NCBI GenBank assembly: GCA_949285255.1 | Contig: CASDXV010000012.1 | Span: forward strand, 1-48,161 | Source: an uncultured bacterium | GTDB taxonomy: Bacteria > Cyanobacteriota > Vampirovibrionia > Gastranaerophilales > Gastranaerophilaceae | Length of the DNA stretch: 48,161 nucleotides | Direction: 5' to 3' | Shown here: positions 35,260 through 47,433 of the stretch, piece by piece | Layout: every line of letters starts with the position of its first letter | Position numbering within the stretch: the first letter of the stretch is position 1 | Notes under the pieces: generated by a model | Told to the model about the DNA's origin: nothing | Databases searched by the model: none | Seen by the model: only the letters and a program-made list of their open reading frames with translations | Position numbers and translations under genes: made by a program

Positions 35260-37029
35260 ATGCGCAATTTTAAACTTAAAAAGCTGGATGTGTTTTTGCT
35301 TTTGGCAGGCTTTTTATTTTCTGTTTCCCCGTCATTGTCATTGCCAATGGAAGGTGGCATGGGCGTTGGTAACTTTGACCCCGGTGTTGTTGACCAAACA
35401 AACTTAATTCAGTTAAAAGAATATGAACATAGAACTCGTGAGAACCTCGAAGAGCACGAAAGAGGCCGCGAAGTTATTGAAATGAATAAAAAAATGAAAG
35501 AAGAAGTTGACAAACTTCCCAACAAAGAGGTGAGTTTTAAACTTAATTCAATCAAATTCACCGGTAATACTCAATTTACCGAAGAGCAGTTGATGGACTT
35601 GATTTGTGAAAAAATCGGTCAGGAAGTTACAATCAACGACCTTATCGGTTATGCCAATATGGTTACGGAGTTTTATCAACAAAGAGGTTATATTTCAACA
35701 ATTGCTTATCTTCCCCCTCAAAAAGTTCAAGACGGTAACGTCGAAATCGTTATTATGGAAGGTAAATACGGTAAGGTTGAAATTGAGGGTAACAAATGGG
35801 CAAGAGATAAATTTGTCCGAGCTACGTATTTAAAAGATAAAAATATTGAAACAGACAAAGTATTAAACGTACTTGATATTCAAGAAACCCTAAGAGAAAT
35901 GAACGCTTCAAGATATATGAAAGCGCAAGTTTCTATGAATGATAACGAAGAATCCGCTCAGTATACGGATTTAACTTTGCAAATGAAAGACAGATTCCCG
36001 ATTGACTTTGACTTCCGTTTTGATAACCAAGGTCGTGACGCTATCGGCTTAAACCGTGCGGTATTCTTTGCAGGTATGTATAACCTGACAGGCTGGGGCG
36101 ATAAATTATTGTCAACAACATCACTTGCAAGACGTTCAGTCAGCCAAGGTGTTTTCTACTCTATTCCCGTTGGTCGCCATGAAACAAAAATCAACTTAGG
36201 CTACAGCTATAGCGGTGTTACAATGGGCGAAGATTTGAAAGACCTTGATATTAAAGGTAGTTCACACAACTTCTTTGGTGGTATTTCAAGACGTTTGGTA
36301 AAAACAGAAAACTATAAATTATACGGTGATATTTCTTTAGATATAAGAAACACCAAAACTACAATCGGTGAACAAAAACTCACTCTGTATGATTACAAAA
36401 CAAGAGCCTTAAGGGTTAACTTAACAAACATTAAAGATGACTTTTACGGTAAATGGTTCGGTAACATCGGTGCAAGCATAGGTTTGCCTATTATGGGTGC
36501 ATCTGACGAGTATGACGGCTATCACTACGATTGGCTGCCTACAAACAAATTCGTAAAAGTTAACGCTAATATCTCAAGACTTCAAATTTTACCTATGAGG
36601 TCTATGGCAATTATCCAAGCAGGCGGTCAATGGGCAAGCCACGGTTTGTATCCGTCTGAAAAAATGCAATTTGGTGGTATTTCTACAGTTCGTGGTTACG
36701 AAGAAGGTTTCTTCCTTAATGACTACGGTGTAACTGCATCTTTAGAATTAAGGTCGCACATTCCATTTTTGAACAGAATTTTGCCTGAAAAACTAAGATT
36801 TATCGATGATTCTATTCAATGGGCAGCATTCTATGATGCAGGTTGGTTCGGTAATGTCGGAACAAGCACATACGGCCCTAATTATATGATGAGTGTGGGC
36901 GGCGGTCTTATCGTAAGATTGACTAAATACTTATCAGGTAACGTCTATATCGGTATTCCTATCGGTGATAAGCCTGAGGGTGCATCAAACTGCCGTGTTC
37001 ACTTCACAATTACATCAAACATTCTGTAG
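35260..37029 (+). CDS. Two-partner secretion transporter (FhaC/ShlB-type TpsB)
   Basis: Outer-membrane beta-barrel that recognises and exports TpsA. 589 residues: a signal peptide (about 1-28), an N-terminal helix/linker rich in Glu and Arg (~48-85), two POTRA domains (NSIKFTGNTQFTEEQL near 92; KYGKVEIEGNKWARDKF near 169) and a C-terminal 16-strand barrel with the L6-loop motif GGISTVRGYEEG near 471-482 and the terminal strand ending in hydrophobic residues. Closest functional parallel is FhaC/ShlB/HecB. AAGGA precedes the ATG and a strong terminator follows. Confidence 0.93.
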   Translation: MRNFKLKKLDVFLLLAGFLFSVSPSLSLPMEGGMGVGNFDPGVVDQTNLIQLKEYEHRTRENLEEHERGREVIEMNKKMKEEVDKLPNKEVSFKLNSIKFTGNTQFTEEQLMDLICEKIGQEVTINDLIGYANMVTEFYQQRGYISTIAYLPPQKVQDGNVEIVIMEGKYGKVEIEGNKWARDKFVRATYLKDKNIETDKVLNVLDIQETLREMNASRYMKAQVSMNDNEESAQYTDLTLQMKDRFPIDFDFRFDNQGRDAIGLNRAVFFAGMYNLTGWGDKLLSTTSLARRSVSQGVFYSIPVGRHETKINLGYSYSGVTMGEDLKDLDIKGSSHNFFGGISRRLVKTENYKLYGDISLDIRNTKTTIGEQKLTLYDYKTRALRVNLTNIKDDFYGKWFGNIGASIGLPIMGASDEYDGYHYDWLPTNKFVKVNANISRLQILPMRSMAIIQAGGQWASHGLYPSEKMQFGGISTVRGYEEGFFLNDYGVTASLELRSHIPFLNRILPEKLRFIDDSIQWAAFYDAGWFGNVGTSTYGPNYMMSVGGGLIVRLTKYLSGNVYIGIPIGDKPEGASNCRVHFTITSNIL

Positions 37030-37600: not shown

Positions 37601-37843
37601 CTAATCTCCATGGGTGTGCAGGAAGTAATCATAAATTTTATCTATTTTTTCTTTAATCTCGCCCCACTGATTTTTTAACTCTTCAATGTAGATAACAGAG
37701 GCAAAACGTTTCTGGCATTCGTTCATAATTTCTCTGTGCTTTTTTTCAAGTGCCTCAGGGGTGACAAAAATCTTTGTCTGCGCGGCAAAAAGTATTATTA
37801 CAATTAAAATCGGTGCAAATTCAAGATAGTTTTCTATATTCAT
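37601..37843 (-). CDS. Prophage small membrane protein, holin or spanin candidate
   Basis: 80 residues with one N-terminal membrane helix (about 9-25, FAPILIVIILFAAQTKI) and a charged, probably coiled-coil tail (EELKNQWGEIKEKIDKIYDYF). It starts 11 bases after the terminase gene with AAGGAAT before the ATG and is the last gene of the prophage transcript. Size and topology would fit a one-helix holin or an inner-membrane spanin, but no signature confirms either. Confidence 0.6.
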   Translation of the reverse strand: MNIENYLEFAPILIVIILFAAQTKIFVTPEALEKKHREIMNECQKRFASVIYIEELKNQWGEIKEKIDKIYDYFLHTHGD

Positions 37844-37854
37844 ATAATTCCTTT

Positions 37855-39144
37855 CTAAGTAATGGGAAAATAGTACTCTACAAGGTAGCTGGCGGCATCA
37901 AACGGGTGAGAGAGGTATTTTAGCTCTTTGTTGTTTTTAATTGCCCAATATGTCGGTATATCAATATTAGAGCCGCCCTCTCGGTATTTTAGATTGTTCA
38001 GGTTGTATATCAATTTCTCGCACTTCGGGTCAATTAATATGTGTCTTTGCCCGTCCATGGTTTGCATCATGGAGCAAAATGCGGCTACTCTGTTTTTAAT
38101 AGGCGGGTTAAACTGCCTCAGGTGAAACTCTACATTTCTTTTCATTCTCTGGGCAAAAAAGTTTCTTATCAGCATGTAATTTGTATACTCGCTTACACAA
38201 GTGCGATTATCGCCCGAGGCGTCGCCGTTTATGATTATTTTGCCTTTGTGATTAGGGTATCTTCTGGCGAATTCTTCACAGGTTTTTGTTGTTGTGGTGT
38301 TCTCAAGAACAATTTCATCAAAGAAATATACCCTGTGGTTGTCAATGTGGGCAAGTAACCAGCACATAGGGTCTACGTTAAAGTCGCAGGATATATGCAG
38401 GTCGCAAAATTCCAGATAGTTTATTTTTTCTATATTTTCTTTTGAAAAGTTAGGTACAACAAGGGGGCAATTATCCTCTTCAAATTCGCCCAAGACATTT
38501 TTTTTGTAATAATTTTCATCATATGCGCTTTTTAGATTTTCGCAAAAATCTTTTGGCAGATAGATATTTTCCGTTGACGGTGCCAAAACAAGCCGCCAGT
38601 TGGGTTTTTTGTTTTCATAAAAATTTTTATATATCCAGCCCCTTCTGCTTTGAGGGTTGGTGTGGCCAAAAATTCTGTATTTAAAATCTTTCCAGTTTTT
38701 CTTTTTTTTCTGGCGCATACGCCCCAAAAGCATTTTAAATGTTGCCTCAGGGATATCTGACATCTCCTCAATTTCTGCAAAGCCGAGGTTAAGAGATTTT
38801 AGTTTGTTCGGTTCGTCAAAGTGCCTGAAAAGTATGTTTGAGCCGTTTTTAAATACTATTTTTTGCTGAGATTTTATAAACTGCCAGTCGTTACCCTCCT
38901 GAAGTTCAAAGTTGTCAAAATGTTCAAAATAGGCTTCAAGCGTTGTATCACGTACAAGAGAATAAGTCTGTGCCCCGCAAAGTCCGTTTATACCGGGGAA
39001 CTTTAAGCACAAAAGTGTCCCTAAAAGCGACCCGGCCCAGGTTTTACCTGAGCCGAATCCTCCTTGATATACGCATACGTCGAGTTCTTCATTGTGCGGC
39101 ACTTCGAGAAATTTCTTCTGGGTTTTAAGGAGTTTGTATTTCAT
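37855..39144 (-). CDS. Prophage terminase large subunit
   Basis: ATP-driven DNA-packaging motor with a nuclease. 429 residues: Walker A GGFGSGKTWAG near 28-38, a Walker B-type LGFAEIEEMSD near 120-130, the motif III region GHTNPQS, and a C-terminal RNase H-like nuclease with HISCDFNVDPM near 229 and IINGDASGDNRT near 300-311. Length is typical. AGGGGG lies upstream of the ATG. It overlaps the end of the portal gene by 20 bases, so both are probably on one message. Confidence 0.92.
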   Translation of the reverse strand: MKYKLLKTQKKFLEVPHNEELDVCVYQGGFGSGKTWAGSLLGTLLCLKFPGINGLCGAQTYSLVRDTTLEAYFEHFDNFELQEGNDWQFIKSQQKIVFKNGSNILFRHFDEPNKLKSLNLGFAEIEEMSDIPEATFKMLLGRMRQKKKKNWKDFKYRIFGHTNPQSRRGWIYKNFYENKKPNWRLVLAPSTENIYLPKDFCENLKSAYDENYYKKNVLGEFEEDNCPLVVPNFSKENIEKINYLEFCDLHISCDFNVDPMCWLLAHIDNHRVYFFDEIVLENTTTTKTCEEFARRYPNHKGKIIINGDASGDNRTCVSEYTNYMLIRNFFAQRMKRNVEFHLRQFNPPIKNRVAAFCSMMQTMDGQRHILIDPKCEKLIYNLNNLKYREGGSNIDIPTYWAIKNNKELKYLSHPFDAASYLVEYYFPIT

Positions 39145-40828
39145 TTTTATTGCCCCCTAAAGAAGAGTTCTGAGCGGTTTTTACATCGTTGTTATTCAAA
39201 AGAAATTTTGATGTATTTTCTACTCCAAGGCTGCTTAGTGCGTATTTAAAACATTCTTCCCAGTTGATTTTTTCGGCAAGCGAGCCTACTTTTGCAAATT
39301 CTGAGATTGTTTTTTCTATTTCTTTAAATTTGTTGTTTTTAGCAAGTGTTGTTTTTCTGTCGGAGTATCTGTAGATAAAGTTGCCCTCTCTGACATCGGG
39401 GGTAATCTCGATAGTTACTGCTTTACCCTCAACTTCTGTGCTTATTTTTGTATTTTCAAGCATAAAGTTTGCATTTGTAAGGGCTGTTTTTTCTAAAAGC
39501 GGTATAATGATTTTTCTGTTTATTGAATCTACAAGCCAGTTAAGGCGAGCACTTTGACCGTTTGCACTGTAGTTTATTTCAGTTGCGCTGCGCTCAAGAG
39601 GCTGCAATTGCCCTGCCATATTTTCAAATACGCCTGTAGCGCTTTCAATCTGGCTTTTAAAGAATTTAATAAATTCCCAGCCGCCAAGCATGGCGCTGAA
39701 ATTAAGCGGTTGAGGCATTTGAGGTAAAAGCGAGGGGTCGTATTCAATTATTTTACCCGGTTTTACTTCTATCTCTCCGTGGAATGCCCCTCTTGGTGCT
39801 AAAAACGGAGGATTGGACACGAGTTTATGACCTAAAATTTGTGTCTGCATAATCTCGCCTGCCGCCTCAAGTACGGGTAAAATGGGCGATAACGGGCTTA
39901 AACCGCGCTTTGTTGCGGGGTCTTGAGTTATGTTTGCGTAGATATATGGGCAGCTTATATAAGGATTTGCTTCGTTTTGAACTACGGCGACCCTGCCTAC
40001 AACAACAATAAGGCGGTTTTTTAAAATTTTTCCGGATTCAAGTCTGATGTTTCCCCAAAATTTTAATACTTCAACAAGTCCGTCAGATACGCCTGTTGTG
40101 TCTTTGTCTTTTTTTGAGCGCTCAAGCAGAGTTTCAAGCTCATATTTAACGGTGTCATTTATGGTGAAGTTTTCTTTATTTTCAAGGATTTCATTTACTT
40201 CCATCCAGCTTCTTTGAATTTTAGGGCATGCGTCCCAGTTTTGCGCCCTATTTGTATCAAAAACAAAGTCATGCGAGGGTATAATCTTTAGCGATGCGCC
40301 TTCATAGGTTTTTTCTTTAATTACCTTAAAAGAATCTAGCATGGGGTTTTGGATTTTTTCATAAAGAGTTGTAGCAATGCGCCTTTTTCTCCATCTTGTT
40401 TCCCAGCCCACAAAGAGGATTATTTCCCCTGTTTCAATAAGTTTGTCTATTATTTCTTCAAGTTTTTGTGAGAATTTCATCTTCTCAAGAGCCCTGCATA
40501 AAAATATTTTGTGGTTGTTAGCGCGCTCAGAGCTTGAGTTATCCGTCTCAGAAACGTCAAAAAGCCCCTCGGGATATGAGGATATTGCCTCAAGCAAATG
40601 CGCCTTAAGAGTTGTCGCCTGCTCCCACGCATCAGGCAGGGAGAGCTTTTTTGTGCCGAGTTCACTGTGGCTGTGTGATGAGTATATGGCGTTTTTTATG
40701 CTTTTTATGTGCGAGAGTTGGTTTCGCCTTTTTTCGTGCAAATTGTCGAACTTGTTTACGATTTTATTTTTTATTTCTTCAAGTTCCAAATCACTGAGCT
40801 TTATCTGCTCAAATTCAGTATTTTTCAT
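39125..40828 (-). CDS. Prophage portal (head-to-tail connector) protein
   Basis: 567 residues, the dodecameric ring for DNA entry. Size and layout fit podovirus portals: an N-terminal helical region (NLHEKRRNQLSHIKSIKNAI), a central wing/stem (IIPSHDFVFDTNRAQNWDACP near 186-206, NPYISCPYIYANITQDPATKRG near 285-306) and a C-terminal crown (SATGVFENMAGQLQPLERSATE, about 396-417). The C-terminal tail is Asn/Ser-rich. AAAGG precedes the ATG. It lies between the small and large terminase genes rather than after both, which is uncommon. Confidence 0.88.
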   Translation of the reverse strand: MKNTEFEQIKLSDLELEEIKNKIVNKFDNLHEKRRNQLSHIKSIKNAIYSSHSHSELGTKKLSLPDAWEQATTLKAHLLEAISSYPEGLFDVSETDNSSSERANNHKIFLCRALEKMKFSQKLEEIIDKLIETGEIILFVGWETRWRKRRIATTLYEKIQNPMLDSFKVIKEKTYEGASLKIIPSHDFVFDTNRAQNWDACPKIQRSWMEVNEILENKENFTINDTVKYELETLLERSKKDKDTTGVSDGLVEVLKFWGNIRLESGKILKNRLIVVVGRVAVVQNEANPYISCPYIYANITQDPATKRGLSPLSPILPVLEAAGEIMQTQILGHKLVSNPPFLAPRGAFHGEIEVKPGKIIEYDPSLLPQMPQPLNFSAMLGGWEFIKFFKSQIESATGVFENMAGQLQPLERSATEINYSANGQSARLNWLVDSINRKIIIPLLEKTALTNANFMLENTKISTEVEGKAVTIEITPDVREGNFIYRYSDRKTTLAKNNKFKEIEKTISEFAKVGSLAEKINWEECFKYALSSLGVENTSKFLLNNNDVKTAQNSSLGGNKNEIQTP

Positions 40829-40840
40829 AGTCTGCCTTTC

Positions 40841-41245
40841 TTAAATTTTATCAGGGTCGAGCCCTTCTATGTTTTCAAATATGGATTTTTTATTTTTTAA
40901 TTCTTCATGCCTGTTGCCCCCGAGCTGTTTGCAGAGTCCGTCAAGTGCTCTTAGTGCAAGCTGAGGCTCTTTTAGGCCGTTTTCGTCTTCAAAAAACGCA
41001 TATTCAATGATTTTTAAGTATTTTTGAACAACAAATGCCTTTGTGATTTCGAGTTTTTGCGCACTTTGTTTTATTATTTTGTTTAGGAAATTGATTTTTT
41101 TCGGGTCATCGAGGATTTTTTTTACATTTGTAACAGAGTTTTTATTTTTGTAGCCTGCAAGGTGCGCACTGTGCTCTGCATCTAGTGTTCTGGCATAGTT
41201 TTCAAGAAATTTTTTTTGATTAATATTTATATTATCTTTATCCAT
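40841..41245 (-). CDS. Probable prophage terminase small subunit
   Basis: 134 residues. NQKKFLENYARTLDAEHSAHLAGYKNK near 8-34 and the following NVKKILDDPKKINFLNKI match the DNA-binding N-terminal pattern of terminase small subunits (Terminase_2 style: ...FVENYL...A...AGY...A.....L..P.V...I). The rest is helical oligomerisation region with a C-terminal acidic tail likely to contact TerL. No clear ribosome binding site precedes the ATG. The portal gene starts 12 bases downstream. Confidence 0.72.
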   Translation of the reverse strand: MDKDNININQKKFLENYARTLDAEHSAHLAGYKNKNSVTNVKKILDDPKKINFLNKIIKQSAQKLEITKAFVVQKYLKIIEYAFFEDENGLKEPQLALRALDGLCKQLGGNRHEELKNKKSIFENIEGLDPDKI

Positions 41246-41269
41246 TTTTAATATTTCTTAATAAAGTAA

Positions 41270-41298
41270 TTGATTTTTATAGATAAGTTATGTACAAT
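41270..41298 (+). promoter_or_regulatory. Plus-strand promoter inside the minus-strand prophage operon
   Basis: TTGATT at 41270-41275, a 17-base spacer and TACAAT at 41293-41298. It points away from the structural genes and towards the terminator at 41334-41355. Confidence 0.5.
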
Positions 41299-41304
41299 AA
41301 ACTT

Positions 41305-41355
41305 GTTGTTAATGCTTCGGCTAGTATGCGAATGGGGTTTCGACCCCTTTTTTTT
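41305..41355 (+). ncRNA. Candidate small RNA between TerS and scaffold genes
   Basis: A promoter (41270-41298) and a strong intrinsic terminator (41334-41355) frame a transcript of only about 50 bases, antisense in direction to the late genes and lying between them. The RNA would end in a UUCG-capped hairpin and includes a possible second small stem (TTCG at 41317-41320 with CGAA at 41329-41332). No open frame of note. Expression is unproven. Confidence 0.4.
41334..41355 (+). terminator. Plus-strand intrinsic terminator with UUCG loop
   Basis: Stem GGGGT / ACCCC closed by TTCG, then eight T at 41348-41355. On the minus strand there is no T run, so it acts only on plus-strand transcripts. Confidence 0.82.
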
Positions 41356-41362
41356 GTCCGAT

Positions 41363-41408
41363 TTTTAAAAAAACCTCAGGCAGCCTCGAAAATCAAGACT
41401 ACCCGAGG
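41363..41408 (-). terminator. Minus-strand terminator after the scaffold gene
   Basis: On the minus strand, CCTCGGGTAG pairs with CTGCCTGAGG (two G-T pairs), followed by seven T. An alternative inner pairing uses GCCTCG/CGAGGC. It follows the scaffold stop by about 11 bases and would separate scaffold and coat genes from TerS, portal and TerL. Confidence 0.65.
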
Positions 41409-41418
41409 CAAGGAGTTG

Positions 41419-42057
41419 TTAGCTGCGGATTAAATCCATTATCTGTGCGTTAATTTCATCTTCATGCTTTAGAAATTCATCTGTTGTCATAGCGTCAATG
41501 TCACTTGCGCTATAGTATTGGCGGCTTTTTAAACTGCCGTCAATTTCGCTTTTGCCGTTATTTTCAAGTTTGTTTAAAAATTTTGAATTTTCCTGCTGCA
41601 AAAAGTTTGCATACTTCGGGTTTTGGGCGCAAAAGCGCTTTATTGCGTCTTCTTCCATTCTTTTCACGATTTGTGCGATTTTATCCAGTTCTTCTTTGTC
41701 AAAATTTGCACCAAGTGAGTTTAAATATTCAAATAATACTTCTCTGCCGTTGAAAAAATCAGGATTTTGTTTCATAAATTCTTCAAAAACGACAGGTTTA
41801 TCGGTCTGAATTTGAGCCTTAACGGGTGTTTGAGGTGTTGTGTTAATATTTGTATTATTTGTGTTAGAAGTTGTTTGCTTTGGGGCATTATTTAAGTACA
41901 AGGACTTTAAGAGAGCTGAAAGAACTTCTCTTGAGTTGTTCTGTGTACTAAGCGATGCATTTTGACGTTGGTTGGTATTAGTGCTTGGCGCTGCAGTTGC
42001 GGGCTGCTTGGCAAGAAGCGCTCTTAGCAAAAGTTCTTGGACCATATTATCTTTCAT
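41419..42057 (-). CDS. Probable prophage scaffolding protein
   Basis: 212 residues. The N-terminal half is Gln/Asn/Thr-rich and disordered (KQPATAAPSTNTNQRQ). The C-terminal half is charged and helical, with repeated coiled-coil-like segments (KEELDKIAQIVKRMEEDAIK near 119-138). Position directly before the coat gene's location and composition match scaffolds in podovirus head modules; no catalytic motif is present. AGGAAGGG precedes the ATG. It stands between terminators on both sides. Confidence 0.6.
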   Translation of the reverse strand: MKDNMVQELLLRALLAKQPATAAPSTNTNQRQNASLSTQNNSREVLSALLKSLYLNNAPKQTTSNTNNTNINTTPQTPVKAQIQTDKPVVFEEFMKQNPDFFNGREVLFEYLNSLGANFDKEELDKIAQIVKRMEEDAIKRFCAQNPKYANFLQQENSKFLNKLENNGKSEIDGSLKSRQYYSASDIDAMTTDEFLKHEDEINAQIMDLIRS

Positions 42058-42089
42058 CTTATCCCTTCCTTTAACCTAGTTTTACAAAC

Positions 42090-42111
42090 GTCCCCTCGGG
42101 GACTTTTTTTT
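42090..42111 (+). terminator. Plus-strand terminator-like hairpin at the edge of the hairpin array
   Basis: GTCCC/GGGAC stem (42090-42103) followed by eight T. It faces the opposite way to the flanking structural genes. In the minus direction it has only a short T tract. Confidence 0.6.
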
Positions 42112-42325
42112 GGCGAAGCCGGTGCAGATGACTTGCGATGAGCAAGGCTTCTGCACTACGCTTACGAGCGAAGCTCGAAGCGCAGCACGACTGTGCGCGC
42201 TGAGAGCGAGTGAGTCTTTGGTGTGTGAAGTGCGTATGTGGCAAGCGAGGAGCTTGGCACAAAGCACGAACCGTACCCGAGCGAAGCTCGAATTGTGACG
42301 CGATGCGTCCAATGAGAGCAAGCTC
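42112..42325 (+). repeat. Array of small GA-loop hairpins
   Basis: Non-coding, GC-richer island between the scaffold and coat genes. Read on the plus strand it packs at least seven perfect or near-perfect short hairpins: GGC-GAA-GCC (42112-42120), CTTGC-GATGA-GCAAG (42132-42146) inside an outer GTGCAG/CTGCAC, CGAGC-GAA-GCTCG (42165-42177) inside CGCTT/AAGCG, GCAC-GACT-GTGC (42185-42196), CAAGC-GAGGA-GCTTG (42242-42256), a second identical CGAGC-GAA-GCTCG (42278-42290) and GACGC-GAT-GCGTC (42297-42309). All loops begin with GA. Open frames in three directions run through it only because it lacks stop codons; none has gene-like composition or a ribosome binding site. Confidence 0.75.
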
Positions 42326-42329
42326 GTAT

Positions 42330-43184
42330 CTATATTTCACATTTTAAGACTGCAAGTGCTTTAGGATTAAGCGCAACTGCGCCAAATGTGTACAATCCTC
42401 TTACGACCGTGTCAAATGACTGCTCTGCTCTTATTTGTTCAAATTTCTTTAATTGAGAAGCGTATGTAATGCCCTCTGTTGTACCTGCCATAATGATATA
42501 TTCATCATCTTCGCCTTTTCCTACGTTGTTGCTTACAAATACATCAAGGCCTGCTATTCTGCCTATTGAACCTTCTTTTTTAGCTTTGTCAGATTCATTA
42601 GATGAGCCTGAGAACTGTTCACAAAGCAAAAGAATTTCTTCTACATCAGGGTGAACTACAACCCAGCCTTGTTTTTGAGGAGTTATAGCGCCTGAGTTTT
42701 TAAGTAATTTTGCAAGAGATACAAAGTGAGAATATACATTTGTCTTATCAAGTGTAATAGCTGTTGTTGATTCGCCTTCGATAATGTTTGCGCTATCAGC
42801 GTATTGGTGCATTGTGAAAATGTATTTATCTATACCCTCGTCAATTGCTTTTTGTGCTTTTGTAAGAATTGTATCTGTCAGCTGCACGTTAGTTTGGGCC
42901 TGAACGATATCAGGAACGCTGAAAGCAAAGTATAAGCTTTGGTCAAGTTTAAGAGTTTTGCTTGATACGGTTGCTGCACTGTAAGCAGGCAGAGTGCCCG
43001 TGTATGCTCCTGTTGCAACGCTTTCAGGGGTTGCGATTTTAATTTCGCTTGTGCCGTTGTCGGCTTCTGCCTGATAGTCGCGGTTTACGCACTGAAGCAT
43101 TGTACAGGTTTTATCCAAGCCTGCGTTAATCTTTTTACTCCAAGTGCTGACAATCAAGCTGCTGTAGTTGGTTTGTTGTGACAT
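42330..43184 (-). CDS. Prophage major capsid protein (HK97-like)
   Basis: The coat subunit. 284 residues with the order seen in small HK97-fold coats: an N-terminal IVSTWSKKINAGLDKTCTML then CVNRDYQAEADNG near 33-45, a central A/P domain (AQKAIDEGIDKYIFTMHQYA near 108-127, GWVVVHPDVEEILL near 175-188) and a C-terminal GSIGRIAGLDVFVSNNVG near 207-224 closing with a hydrophobic strand. Such NRDYxxE sequences are common in siphovirus and podovirus coats. AAGGAAG precedes the ATG. A 6-bp-stem hairpin (CCGCAC TGTA GTGCGG, 43215-43230) lies just upstream at the end of the acetyltransferase gene. Confidence 0.82.
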   Translation of the reverse strand: MSQQTNYSSLIVSTWSKKINAGLDKTCTMLQCVNRDYQAEADNGTSEIKIATPESVATGAYTGTLPAYSAATVSSKTLKLDQSLYFAFSVPDIVQAQTNVQLTDTILTKAQKAIDEGIDKYIFTMHQYADSANIIEGESTTAITLDKTNVYSHFVSLAKLLKNSGAITPQKQGWVVVHPDVEEILLLCEQFSGSSNESDKAKKEGSIGRIAGLDVFVSNNVGKGEDDEYIIMAGTTEGITYASQLKKFEQIRAEQSFDTVVRGLYTFGAVALNPKALAVLKCEI

Positions 43185-43210
43185 GGTTTCTTCCTTTCTT
43201 TTTTATCTGC

Positions 43211-43753
43211 TTATCCGCACTGTAGTGCGGGATTAAATATTGAAAATACGTATAGATGGCATGGTTTGTTGAACTTATAACATTCATCTTTTAACCTTGC
43301 TTCAAATTCAAACCCGAGTTTTTCTATAAGGCTTCTTGCAAGAGTGTTTTCGCCCACTATTTCAATTGTGAGCTTTCTCACTTTCATTTTTTCAAATAAA
43401 AATTTAATGCCTTTTTTTGCTATTAAATACGAGCCAAAACCCCAGTAGGGCCTTGCTATACAAAATGTAACGCTTGTATCTGTTGCGCCAAAGGGTGTTT
43501 TTTTTCTGTTATAAAGGTAGAAAAACCCTCCGAAGCGGTCTTGTTTGCCGAGTTTTATGCAATAAATCGCATCTTTAAAATTTCTTACAAATCCTATGAA
43601 TTTTTCACTTGTCGACAGGTTCATGTAGTAAAAATTATCGTCAAACAGGCGGTAGTGGTATTTATTGCATTGTTTAAATACTTCCGGTAAATCGATTAGA
43701 GTGGGTTTTTCAAAATTTATTTCAAATAAGTCTTTTAGTTTATCTATTTTCAT
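43211..43753 (-). CDS. Prophage GNAT-family acetyltransferase
   Basis: 180 residues of the GNAT fold. The acetyl-CoA site is recognisable as VTFCIARPYWGFGSYLIAKKG near 94-114 (a variant of the R/Q-x-x-G-x-G/A loop) followed by KLTIEIVGENTLARSLIEKLGFEFEAR (about 127-153), the typical beta-5/helix-4 segment with the Asn-Ala-x-Ser-like ENTLARSLIEKLGF. The substrate is unknown; its place between coat and connector genes may hint at modification of a virion or host protein, but phages also carry such genes as cargo. GAGG precedes the ATG. Divergent from the membrane-protein gene. Confidence 0.75.
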   Translation of the reverse strand: MKIDKLKDLFEINFEKPTLIDLPEVFKQCNKYHYRLFDDNFYYMNLSTSEKFIGFVRNFKDAIYCIKLGKQDRFGGFFYLYNRKKTPFGATDTSVTFCIARPYWGFGSYLIAKKGIKFLFEKMKVRKLTIEIVGENTLARSLIEKLGFEFEARLKDECYKFNKPCHLYVFSIFNPALQCG

Positions 43754-43803
43754 TGTTGCCTCATTTGTTAATTTATGGTATTTTTAAGTCGGAGAATGTT
43801 GAT

Positions 43804-44274
43804 ATGCAAAATGATGAAAAATTTCTTGTTTTAGAACAGTACAGAGTTTATTCGCAAGCAAAAGAAGAGTTTATTTCAAGGAACTTCAGTACAAACAGGT
43901 TTTATCTTGTTTTGTCCTTAGTCTTGTTTTTGCTTTTGTATGTTTTTAACGCACTCACACCCTCTCTTATGCCTCTTGTAGTGGGTTCTATAATTGGTAT
44001 GGCTGTTTGTGTTATGTGGTGGCTAAACCTTGACAGTTATCAGTTTTTAATAAAAATTAAATACTCTAAGGTGTTAGAAGAAATGGAAAATATGCTTCCT
44101 TTTAACCCTTACAGAAAGGAATATCAGGCATTTCAGGAAGCAAAGAAAAATAAGAAAGCAATAGTATTTTCTGATTTTCAAAAGTTCCTTACAGTGGTTC
44201 TTTTCTGCCTATTTCTTGTAATATTTTCTAACAGTGTTACTTTTGTTATTTTGAATTTTACAAAATCTTACTAG
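43804..44274 (+). CDS. Two-helix-pair membrane protein (RipA-like), opposite strand
   Basis: 156 residues. A short polar N terminus is followed by two adjacent membrane helices (about 35-50 and 58-74), a cytoplasmic middle (VLEEMENMLPFNPYRKEYQAF) and one or two C-terminal membrane helices. This resembles small RipA-family membrane proteins, though the match is by topology and general sequence look only. The ATG at 43804 is chosen because GGAG sits nine bases upstream; an earlier TTG at 43753 has none. It is the only plus-strand gene within the prophage module, and its stop codon shares CTAG with the convergent connector gene. Candidate moron or superinfection-exclusion gene. Confidence 0.62.
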   Translation: MQNDEKFLVLEQYRVYSQAKEEFISRNFSTNRFYLVLSLVLFLLLYVFNALTPSLMPLVVGSIIGMAVCVMWWLNLDSYQFLIKIKYSKVLEEMENMLPFNPYRKEYQAFQEAKKNKKAIVFSDFQKFLTVVLFCLFLVIFSNSVTFVILNFTKSY

Positions 44275-44933
44275 CCAAAAGTAATTCTTGGAGTATTTTC
44301 TCTTGACTTAGTTCCTGAGGCCCTAAGATTGGTTATGGCGTTGTAGTAGAGTGTTCTCCAGTAGTTAAATTTTGCAAAAGACGGGTTTGCTTTGACTCTT
44401 ATTAATGTTCCGTAAACAAGAATTTGCTCTACGTAAGGTAGTGGTATGATGCTTGTGTCGTCACTGTTTTGCATTATTGCTTTTTTTGTGCCGTTAGAAT
44501 CTTGAGCATATAAGTCTGAAACATATATTACGCTTAATTTTCTATCTTGTTTCTGAGGTGTTGTTATGATTAAATTTCCGATATTTGAGTAAACGTCAGT
44601 TCTGTTTGAGAATTTTGGATTTAACTGTGTAGGGTGTACGTATTTGTATTTTTTGGAATTTTCCCATACAGAGATAATTCTTCCTCCAAAATCGCTCATG
44701 ATAGTTGTTGCGTCACGTTCGAGTTCAATTTCTTGTTTTTCAATTTGAAAATCCCAAATATATGAGCTTAAAACATCGGAGTTTGTCATATTAATAAGGT
44801 TTAAGACTCTTTTGTGTTCGCTTTTTTCTATTTCTTCAAAACTTGAAACCTCTCTCCAGCTCAGTTCATTTAGTACTTTTTTAAAGATATCAAAGTATGT
44901 TGGCTTTAGTTGCGAAGTGTTTTCTGTGTCCAT
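44271..44933 (-). CDS. Probable prophage head-tail adaptor (T7 gp11/P22 gp4-like role)
   Basis: 220 residues; helix-rich N terminus (FDIFKKVLNELSWREVSSFEEI) followed by strands and a C-terminal ...LYYNAITNLRASG segment. Length and location between coat and the large hub-like gene match the adaptor that sits under the portal in podoviruses; no signature is strong enough for a firm family. The ATG at 44933 is used because AAAGGAGG is five bases upstream; an in-frame start six codons earlier lacks one. Convergent with and overlapping the stop of the plus-strand membrane gene. Confidence 0.6.
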   Translation of the reverse strand: MDTENTSQLKPTYFDIFKKVLNELSWREVSSFEEIEKSEHKRVLNLINMTNSDVLSSYIWDFQIEKQEIELERDATTIMSDFGGRIISVWENSKKYKYVHPTQLNPKFSNRTDVYSNIGNLIITTPQKQDRKLSVIYVSDLYAQDSNGTKKAIMQNSDDTSIIPLPYVEQILVYGTLIRVKANPSFAKFNYWRTLYYNAITNLRASGTKSRENTPRITFG

Positions 44934-44943
44934 TTTTCCTCCT

Positions 44944-45180
44944 TTATACAAAACCTAGAAATTCGTATTTAAAACCTCGGCAGACAAATCTGTCTAAGCC
45001 TTCAAGATATATTTTTGAGGCGAGTTTTTTGCCTCTTTGGCTGCCTTTTAAGTCGTCAAGCAGCTTATTTGCACTGATTTTTATGCTAAAGTCGGCAAAG
45101 ACGGAGCTTTTTGTCCATATAGCGTGAGCTCCAAGCATTTGCTGATATTCGTAGTTAATTTCATTGTTACTAGAAGTCAT
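44944..45180 (-). CDS. Small prophage protein, unknown
   Basis: 78 residues, soluble, with a likely helix (SIKISANKLLDDLKGSQRG) and a terminal aromatic patch (FVCRGFKYEFLGFV). It overlaps the end of the hub-like gene by 11 bases, has AAGGAG before its ATG and is followed by the adaptor gene after 10 bases, so it is a genuine member of the connector operon. Function unknown; it may be a small neck or assembly factor. Confidence 0.65.
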   Translation of the reverse strand: MTSSNNEINYEYQQMLGAHAIWTKSSVFADFSIKISANKLLDDLKGSQRGKKLASKIYLEGLDRFVCRGFKYEFLGFV

Positions 45181-46705
45181 TTAAAAGCTCCTTAAATTCT
45201 ATTCCAACGAGCTTAAACCCGTCGTTTTCTTCTTCTCCTTCTATGTGAATTGCCACACTTAGGTTAGAATCAAATATCTGTACTCCTACAGTGCTCTGGT
45301 ATGAATGCGCCCAAATAGGATTGTACGCTGTTTCAAAACAGTTGTAGTTGTTTTTCGGTTCATCCTCGCTTGCCCATATAAGAGCACCTGTTTGAGTTGT
45401 TTTAATATATTCGTGGTCGGTTTTTATCTCTTTTATAAAATCCTTTGAAACGCTGAATTTAAAACGGTTTTCTCCTGTTTCATCAAGCAGAAGTGCAAAA
45501 TCTTCTACAATTTTTCTCTCGGATGGTTTACCAAGGTGGAAAAAGGGAGTAGAGAAGCTAAATTTTATAGGTAAACCGTCAAATGTGCTGCCTATATTTT
45601 CCATAAGTATTTTGCCGTTTGAACAGCCGGATATTATTTGATAGTTTACATTAGTAGCACATGTTATTTCTTGCTCTTCTATTCTTTTTGTCCAGCAATC
45701 GTTGGCAAAATCGTAAACCATAATGGTTCTAAAATACTTATCATCATTGTATGGGAGATAAAACCATATCTGGTTTTTCTTTTCATAAGGTACACAAAAA
45801 GCTTCGCTTATGCGGCTTGTGTCAATGTCTTTAAAAGAACTTTCTACAGGGTAAGCTATATTTCCGCTCATCATAATTTGAGAGAGTTCGCCTACTTGAG
45901 ACAGGGCAAAAAGCCCGTCTGCGTTAAAAAAGTACTGTTTGTTATTGCAGGTGCAGACTGCTTTTGAACCTTGAACACCCTTATCTGCAAATTTTATAAC
46001 GCTAAAGTTATCAGGTGATGTGCCTGAGAGCAGATATACGCCATCAGACTTAAATATGGCAAGGTTTCCGCAATATAGTGCAAGTGCTGATATTTTTGTT
46101 ACGGAGGAGTGAAAATTTGAAATATATCCTGCATCATTTGGGCTTTCCCAGTCGTCGTATCTGCCTAAAGCACTAAAATACAGAGTTGATTTTGAGCCAA
46201 TCCAGATACGTCCTGCAAATGTACATGTTGTATCGGGTATTATATCGTTTTCATCTGCATCTTTAGCATTCAGCGGTTTTACTTTTTCGCCACTCATTGA
46301 AGAGTTGTAATAATACGCCTCACAGCCTTTTGCGTAAAATACCACCCCGTCAAGATATAGAGTAAAATCGGCAGATGATATTTGTTTTTCATAATCAAAA
46401 ATTACCTCAGATATTCTTGTAAGGTAATTATAGTATTTGATTTTTCCGTCTGAGCGGGCGTAAATAAAGCCGTCTGTTGATTTGGGGTATTCGCAAATCC
46501 CGACAATTGAGCACTCGTCAGTTGTGTCGTCATCTAAATATGTTTGATTGCCCATCATTCTTTCGACACCTTGGTTTTTGTACAGTTCTACGTTATAACT
46601 GTCATCCCAGTTGAGTTTTTTTGCTCCGTAACCGAGCATTACCTTTGTGGCGTTTGTGTTTATGCCGCCTGAAAAGTCATAAAATGCAAGTTTATTATCG
46701 CTCAT
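45170..46705 (-). CDS. Probable prophage tail hub / DNA-stabilisation protein (P22 gp10-like)
   Basis: 511 residues, almost all beta-structure, with repeated aromatic strands such as FTLYLDGVVFYAKGCEAYYYN and GRIWIGSKSTLYFSALGRYDDW (about 184-205), consistent with a beta-propeller. P22 gp10 (472 residues) and related podovirus hub/nozzle proteins have this size, composition and position. The N-terminal FYDFSGGINTNATKVMLGYG is a segment often seen at the start of such proteins. It overlaps the endolysin gene by 11 bases and the 78-residue gene by 11 bases. Role in the virion neck is inferred. Confidence 0.65.
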   Translation of the reverse strand: MSDNKLAFYDFSGGINTNATKVMLGYGAKKLNWDDSYNVELYKNQGVERMMGNQTYLDDDTTDECSIVGICEYPKSTDGFIYARSDGKIKYYNYLTRISEVIFDYEKQISSADFTLYLDGVVFYAKGCEAYYYNSSMSGEKVKPLNAKDADENDIIPDTTCTFAGRIWIGSKSTLYFSALGRYDDWESPNDAGYISNFHSSVTKISALALYCGNLAIFKSDGVYLLSGTSPDNFSVIKFADKGVQGSKAVCTCNNKQYFFNADGLFALSQVGELSQIMMSGNIAYPVESSFKDIDTSRISEAFCVPYEKKNQIWFYLPYNDDKYFRTIMVYDFANDCWTKRIEEQEITCATNVNYQIISGCSNGKILMENIGSTFDGLPIKFSFSTPFFHLGKPSERKIVEDFALLLDETGENRFKFSVSKDFIKEIKTDHEYIKTTQTGALIWASEDEPKNNYNCFETAYNPIWAHSYQSTVGVQIFDSNLSVAIHIEGEEENDGFKLVGIEFKELLNDF

Positions 46706-47180
46706 AGTACCACCTTACTTTATTTCTTATGTAATCTCCTGCTTCATCTGCGCTTATAGTAGGCTCGTAGGGGATATATGTAATATCAATTTTGCCTGCA
46801 CTTGTAGATTTAGGGAGCATTTTTCCTACTTCATAATGTGTCATAACAGTGTCTTTTGAGGGCTTTAGATTGTATTTTTTAAGCAGTGTTGCGCAATACG
46901 ACCAGGCTGCTTCGCCTTGTACCCTTACAAAAGGGTAGTCACCTATGTTTTTTGGACTTTTATAGTTCCACATAGCACAAATGCTGAGCCCTATTGAGCC
47001 AGTGTTAAAGCCTCCGCAGTGGGCGGCATATTTTCCGTCATTGCAGTTTAAATTGTCCTCAGGTGTGTATTTTCCTTTTAAAATATCTCCGCACTTATCG
47101 ACTAAAAAATGATAGTGCTCAAAATCCGTTGACGAGGGAGTATACTTCCCTCCAGTCCAATGAAGAATTATCCTTTTCAT
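46695..47180 (-). CDS. Prophage endolysin, N-acetylmuramoyl-L-alanine amidase
   Basis: Cuts the amide bond between muramic acid and the peptide in peptidoglycan for lysis, or assists entry. 161 residues of the Amidase_2/PGRP fold, as in T7 lysozyme: IILHWTGG near 4-11 (first zinc His), AAHCGGFNTGSIGLSICAM near 58-76 and TVMTHYEVG near 110-118 (second His), then GKIDITYIP near 128-137 in place of the usual GRKxDPG, where the third ligand (Cys or Asp) is expected; Asp in KIDI may serve. No signal peptide, so it needs a holin. AGGAG precedes the ATG. The start lies inside the HTH gene (62-base overlap). Confidence 0.87.
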   Translation of the reverse strand: MKRIILHWTGGKYTPSSTDFEHYHFLVDKCGDILKGKYTPEDNLNCNDGKYAAHCGGFNTGSIGLSICAMWNYKSPKNIGDYPFVRVQGEAAWSYCATLLKKYNLKPSKDTVMTHYEVGKMLPKSTSAGKIDITYIPYEPTISADEAGDYIRNKVRWYYER

Positions 47181-47400
47181 TTTTTTCTCCTGAAATTAAA
47201 TCCAATACTAATTTTCCGTGAATGTTTAAAAATTTAGACACCGCCTGAGTTCTGTTTTTTGCATGGTATTTGATATAGATTCTTGCGAGGTAATTTTGAA
47301 CGGTTCTTACGCTAAGATTCAGAGTGCTTGCTATGGCACGGTCTTTAAGACCGCTGCAAAGCAGCGACATCACTTGCGCTTCGCGGTTTGTTAGCCTCAT
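47119..47400 (-). CDS. LuxR/GerE-type HTH protein
   Basis: About 93 residues consisting of a LuxR-type helix-turn-helix (LTNREAQVMSLLCSGLKDRA, then IASTLNLSVRTVQNYLARIY, about 3-42) and a short charged tail. It binds DNA and probably controls transcription of prophage genes. No receiver or sensor domain is attached. The ATG at 47400 follows GAGAGGA; an ATG 11 codons upstream lacks a ribosome binding site. The 3' 62 bases overlap the endolysin gene in another frame, and it leads the minus-strand late cluster, so it may regulate late or lysis genes. Confidence 0.82.
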   Translation of the reverse strand: MRLTNREAQVMSLLCSGLKDRAIASTLNLSVRTVQNYLARIYIKYHAKNRTQAVSKFLNIHGKLVLDLISGEKNEKDNSSLDWREVYSLVNGF

Positions 47401-47433
47401 TATTTGTCCTCTCTTGTTGATGAGTTTATTCAT

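Follow-up and report, generated by a model that had tools for sequence, protein, structure and literature searches.

A mosaic hairpin array behind a terminator-like stem, probably a mobile passenger in a phage-derived gene cluster of Gastranaerophilales

REP and BIME sequences have been described as mosaic palindromic units which are extragenic, lie mostly 3' of genes and often form species-specific families, according to the cited sections of PMC3733652 and PMC2817692. The cited part of PMC2817692 also gives a typical REP copy number of more than 100 per genome and presents RAYT transposases as the proposed agents that spread REPs and BIMEs. In Streptococcus pneumoniae, BOX elements are built of modular hairpins in the order boxA-boxB(n)-boxC, with a variable number of modules at the same sites, and SPRITE is a small repeat found at terminators and gene 3' ends, both as outlined in the cited part of PMC3049150. 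BIME/REP and BOX are the closest kinds to the hairpin array described here, which belongs to neither family.

The array lies in the window (the whole stretch of DNA that was analysed, 48,161 nucleotides) between the major head protein gene (42330-43184, minus strand) and the next gene of the operon (41419-42057). The operon encodes the large and small terminase subunits, a head-tail adaptor and the major head protein, as expected for the phage head operon named in the original prediction. The features are as follows.

42090..42111, plus strand: pre-existing target, the hairpin GTCCCCTCGGGGAC followed by T8, terminator-like and antisense to the operon; the same kind of hairpin with 7-9 T lies in this head-gene spacer in 14/14 genus genomes with the head protein gene
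42112-42120, plus strand: GAA mini-hairpin GGC-GAA-GCC, from the fold, part of the first module
42112..42161, plus strand: first module, the GGC-GAA-GCC mini-hairpin and a hairpin at 42122-42156 (15-nt arms, GATGA loop)
42165..42217, plus strand: X unit 1, a GAA mini-hairpin (42165-42177) overlapping the covarying long hairpin 42173-42207 (GCTC-GA-...GACT...-GA-GAGC)
42177-42178/42202-42203, plus strand: tandem G.A of X unit 1, from pair counts
42220..42277, plus strand: Y unit, a GGTGTG...GAGGA...CGTACC hairpin
42278..42319, plus strand: X unit 2, a GAA mini-hairpin (42278-42290) overlapping the covarying long hairpin 42286-42319, loop GAT
42320..42329, plus strand: right end of the insert, from comparison with empty alleles, directly adjoining the stop of the major head protein gene (TAG, 42330-42332, minus strand)

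The original prediction of a hairpin array with two identical palindromes, GA-type loops on the plus strand and raised GC content was confirmed. Seven plus-strand hairpins lie within 42112-42329, with the loops GAA, GATGA, GAA, GACT, GAGGA, GAA and GAT, and the 13-base palindrome CGAGCGAAGCTCG occurs at 42165 and 42278, inside the exact 15-nt repeat D2. The GC content is 0.56 in 42100-42299 vs 0.32-0.48 in windows within 41400-41999 and 42400-43099. The array is real and not a product of chance: the DNA fold of 42112-42325 had a z of -7.2 vs shuffles, and the RNA folds of 42085-42335, a range that takes in the terminator-like stem, had z of -6.1 on the plus strand and -5.9 on the minus strand, with 0/200 shuffles as good in each case. 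The separate hairpin with T8 directly precedes the array and had not been part of the original prediction. G013 has the first module as well, and at this site the G008 array starts without it. No Rfam family matched the window at the gathering score.

The array is composed of two kinds of unit. The X unit (about 51 nt) consists of a 3-bp mini-hairpin, whose loop is GNA in most copies, a long hairpin of the pattern GCTC-GA-(variable stem)-GA-GAGC and a tail like RAGYGAGYCT, and the Y unit (about 58 nt) of an outer stem, a variable inner stem and a loop. Model R1 matched X unit 1 at 42167-42217 (E 1.0e-16) and X unit 2 at 42280-42329 (E 1.5e-15), the two lying 113 nt apart from start to start. 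Arrays alternate X-Y-X-Y, with X neighbours 107-118 nt apart in 39/45 pairs, and their ends are ragged, inside a unit, at the sites compared. Among 37 distinct Y units the inner stem had 16 distinct arm pairs, and the loops were GNNGA in 30, GNRA in 3 and GAAG in 4. RNAalifold on the Y alignment gave no consensus structure and no pairs, so the Y structure rests on single-sequence folds; the Y results used here are the inner stem and the loop, with the outer-stem parsing left out (the GGTGTGTGA type was not parsed) and the sequence-only model R2 (Y) unused.

As judged from the alignments, compensatory changes, the sign of function named in the original prediction, maintain the long X hairpin. 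In 38 X units, 97.8% of long-hairpin cells were paired and 9/13 pairs had changed on both sides; in 107 distinct X units from five genera, 96.1% were paired, 12/13 pairs had changed on both sides and doubly changed cells numbered 354 vs 104 in shuffles. The cells are counts of sequences rather than of events, a module swap brings many changes together, and the 107-unit alignment (used for covariation and for the G.U/A.C counts) was fitted to the structure. One GCTC arm is common to the mini-hairpin and the long hairpin, so that the two folds are mutually exclusive. The GAA mini-hairpins of the original prediction are present, but covariation backs the competing long X hairpin and was not seen for the mini-hairpin in the X-unit alignment. 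The shared arm of these folds (e.g. in 42165-42207) might serve as a switch. Two observations suggest that the X unit folds on the plus strand: the non-Watson-Crick cells in X pairs include 25 G.U or U.G vs 3 A.C, with 50 others, and the internal loop of the 107 units is GA/GA in 90, AA/TT in 12, TT/AA in 3 and other in 2. Tandem G.A pairs are possible on the plus strand, and the complement would read TC/TC. The folded plus strand may be RNA or single-stranded DNA.

Compared with the described systems, these arrays resemble BIME/REP in being mosaic, palindromic, extragenic and mostly downstream of genes, with complementary changes kept; they are imperfect palindromes, extragenic and multicopy, as REPs and BIMEs are. 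They differ in having 1-21 X matches per genus genome, below typical REP numbers, and in the tags near the foot, with GTAG/CTAC in 10 of 131 distinct units and CGTC/GACG in 5. BIME units alternate in orientation, whereas X neighbours less than 300 nt apart had the same orientation in 45 pairs and opposite orientation in 0; RAYT was not found in 26/27 genomes searched, and many arrays are anchored behind T-runs and carry the tandem G.A motif. Because the tag, the alternating orientation and the cognate transposase are wanting, we do not call the array a REP/BIME member. With BOX it shares modular hairpin arrays of variable module number at the same sites, but the arrays here are X-Y-X with ragged ends and no constant 3' end module by eye, and they keep one orientation behind T-runs and stop codons. 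Like SPRITE, the repeat is small and tied to terminators and gene 3' ends, but SPRITE is itself terminator-like, whereas in these arrays the terminator-like hairpin is already there ahead of the repeat, and its sequence differs by site. Group IIC introns insert beside terminator hairpins; unlike them, the array lies in a window without an Rfam match, and RVT_1 had no match in six genus genomes.

The head protein gene gave one match each in 14/15 genus genomes, and at the orthologous phage-cluster site of 14 species, with junctions read by eye, 6 sites are empty, 4 hold X-type arrays and 4 hold other inserts. At the empty sites (G003, G004, G005, G007, G010 and G012), 7 nt separate the T-run from the conserved head-gene end; this distance is 227 in G000, 337 in G013, 261 in G008 and 69 in G006 (one X unit) among the X-type arrays, and 68 in G001, 68 in G009, 31 in G011 and 80 in G002 among the other inserts. 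The inserts start directly behind the T-run, and the head-gene stop is read as TAA at the T-run edge in the empty G004 and as TAG adjoining the insert in G000. The head protein of G006 is 79.6% identical to that of the window, and those of G000, G013 and G008 are 95-100% identical; carriers as distant as G006 and the other three suggest at least two insertions. G011 has a further empty allele at the flagellin site and G003 one at a third site, and X/Y units also lie behind flagellin, rmuC-like and other chromosomal genes. Whole modules are gained or lost between sister species, gain and loss not being separable at every site. The filled and empty orthologous sites, the unlinked host copies and the compensatory stem changes together favour the mobile hairpin element which was one of the alternatives originally put forward. 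At the flagellin site of G004, G007 and G010 (L243, L244 and L246), other repeats such as GACCCTGAAACAAGTTCAGGGTGAC-like short hairpins lie behind the same terminator, without an X-Y array.

The arrays are placed in a recurrent manner. Thirty-nine of 98 start at most 10 nt behind a run of at least 6 T, with a stem adjacent in 38/39, vs 572/20,000 random positions in the same segments (2.9%); the test took in 98/103 arrays, 5 with less than 40 nt upstream being left out. Where an upstream ORF ends at most 30 nt before the array, it has the same orientation in 21 cases and the opposite in 0, and two arrays follow a tRNA-like 3' end (by eye). The placement rule is strong but incomplete, because 59/98 arrays have no T-run at the start (21 arrays are near a stop codon and some are inner parts of longer arrays, which does not explain all) and the upstream ORF is in opposite orientation for 22/88 arrays, the window copy included. 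The mirror test, an A-run at most 14 nt downstream, gave 0/97 arrays with at least 40 nt downstream, a weak result, since the test starts from the last X unit rather than from the true end of the array.

X units are also homogenised within a genome (concerted evolution), as the comparison of 32 first X units from five recurrent sites showed. Mean identity was 0.818 for the same genome and different sites (32 pairs), 0.733 for the same site and different species (85 pairs, leaving out same-site pairs among the near-identical G000, G013 and G008) and much the same, 0.729, for units differing in both site and genome (339 pairs), and 0/2000 label permutations reached the observed values. Four site-genome cases gave no unit: the third site of G003 is empty, no X unit occurs at the phage site of G001, and a diverged unit escaped the pattern at the flagellin site of G003 and the rmuC site of G006. 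One inner stem is common to the phage and rmuC sites in G000 and G013, another is found at the phage, rmuC and flagellin sites of G008, and a third at the rmuC, flagellin and third sites of G009; the exceptions are the third site in G008 and G013, the flagellin site in G000 and the rmuC site in G006. In G000, a 125-nt block with 2 differences occurs at two unlinked sites.

Model R1 had matches in 15/15 genomes of the genus (1-21 X matches each), in 12/117 family genomes (5/41 genera) and in 13/386 phylum genomes, all 13 in the same family, the family and phylum genomes being drawn samples under stricter filters. For the genus 118/147 R1 rows were used, 29 with E >= 2e-4 being dropped, and for other genera 28/33 rows; 100/101 chosen array loci were entered. 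In 84,980 species genomes an exact gapped pattern matched 36 stretches, of which 30 were labelled Gastranaerophilales, which belongs to Melainabacteria, and the other 6 correspond to G009, G010 and G104 of the same Gastranaerophilales family. By blastn the hairpin repeat matched none of 50,697 phage and 72,556 plasmid records, and the exact pattern was absent from the viral contigs scanned. In the searches made, the repeat thus appears confined to one family of Gastranaerophilales, where the scan outside the phylum consisted of one exact pattern that diverged Firmicutes relatives could escape. The transfer between phyla suspected at first finds no support in this exact-pattern scan. Several X units were located at contig ends (e.g. 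G002:C22:24-74 and G010:C47:1-49), so that arrays may interrupt assemblies and the copy numbers are minimum values. A literature search gave no title on such repeats in Gastranaerophilales among the matches listed.

The surrounding phage head/lysis cluster (37601-47433, minus strand) encodes a terminase, a portal-like protein, the head protein, an endolysin and a regulator, and it is colinear in 13 other genomes fetched (L257-L269), as far as the contigs reach. Nine genomes have a complete or nearly complete terminase, with 90-100% identity, dN is 0.02 vs a dS of 0.95 between G000 and G001, and the ORF 35260-37029 is kept beside the cluster in five genomes. From such gene comparisons, the cluster looks vertically inherited and gene-transfer-agent-like. 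A literature search on gene transfer agents and Melainabacteria gave no title on such a cluster among the matches listed, and the head protein peptide pattern matched 3 stretches in IMG/VR, none encoding a relative. A plus-strand ORF of 173 codons (43753-44274) inside the minus-strand operon has 71-92% identity in 13/13 fetched relatives.

Our preferred reading is that the array is probably a mosaic repeat of X and Y modules which spreads by copying to a hairpin with a T-run or to gene 3' ends and is a passenger in the phage-derived cluster. The hairpin with T-run, or the gene 3' end, would mark the place where sequence from another array is copied in. Copying would start at the T-run and stop at variable points, so that left ends would be fixed and right ends ragged, and the single-stranded plus strand, RNA or DNA, may be the form recognised by the copier or user. 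In the window the target would be the terminator-like hairpin between two head genes of the phage-derived cluster, which makes the array a passenger there; this target is antisense to the operon, which suggests that structure counts and not the main transcript direction. Host recombination or template switching from T-run microhomology would do as the simplest remaining route. No mobilising enzyme was identified in searches for Y1_Tnp and RVT_1. The reverse-transcriptase route was set aside, as RVT_1 had no match in 6/15 genus genomes (G000, G001, G006, G007, G011 and G013). RVT_1 matches are found in the 9/15 others (L213-L220 and others), mostly in frames of about 350-410 aa. It is conceivable, but rather doubtful, that the arrays form a new class of non-coding mobile element, without RAYT, with a hairpin plus T-run or gene 3' end as the landing mark, recognised by a plus-strand fold that has GNA/GNNGA loops and tandem G.A pairs, and evolving in concert across the host chromosome and the resident phage-derived cluster.

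The same placement and strand data bear on a functional RNA at gene 3' ends, in which folded read-through or 3'-UTR modules would bind a protein or would stop exonucleases or antisense read-through, with selection keeping orientation and stems. As an alternative this is possible although unlikely: the arrays are oriented with upstream genes and terminators, the G.A motif is on the plus strand only with G.U kept over A.C, the Y loops are GNNGA in 30/37 with GNRA in 3 more, and a terminator-like hairpin, read by eye, follows an array starting near a stop codon at four loci (G005:C13, G009:C8, G011:C53 and G104:C64); but a terminator-like T-run precedes 39/98 arrays, which places these outside the main transcript, related genomes have empty sites and the window copy is antisense to its operon. 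Because of this last orientation, an antisense structured RNA is possible at the window array. An RNA role at gene ends and the mobile reading could coexist.

It is improbable that the arrays are a REP/BIME set mobilised by RAYT, an IS200/IS605-type HUH transposase. The mosaic palindromic units do keep complementary changes, as the cited part of PMC2817692 describes for BIMEs, but Y1_Tnp (PF01797, the REP transposase/RAYT family) was found in 1/15 genus genomes and 0/12 R1-positive genomes of other genera vs 5/14 control genomes, the foot tags come to the 10 and 5 of 131 units given above in a loose count, and neighbouring units are never in opposite orientation (0/45). A packaging, replication or priming signal of the phage head operon, as first envisaged, is very improbable: the array does separate the major head protein gene from the next one and its DNA hairpins are stable, but 6/14 orthologous clusters have no insert, which refutes it as a conserved requirement, and the same units lie behind flagellin, rmuC-like and other chromosomal genes. 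A translated small gene can practically be dismissed, since the overlapping frames of 89, 79 and 62 codons in the array have against them that the two tested (89 and 62 codons) had no Pfam match, that X spacing steps are not multiples of three (107-118 in 39/45 neighbour pairs) and that sister species differ by the presence of whole modules.

Small palindromic repeats occur widely among bacterial genomes. The family of arrays described here appears to spread, is homogenised and keeps one orientation, with a RAYT-type enzyme found in only one of the genomes searched, and sister species differ in whether the site behind the same terminator-like hairpin is filled or empty. This makes REP-like movement without a dedicated transposase directly testable.
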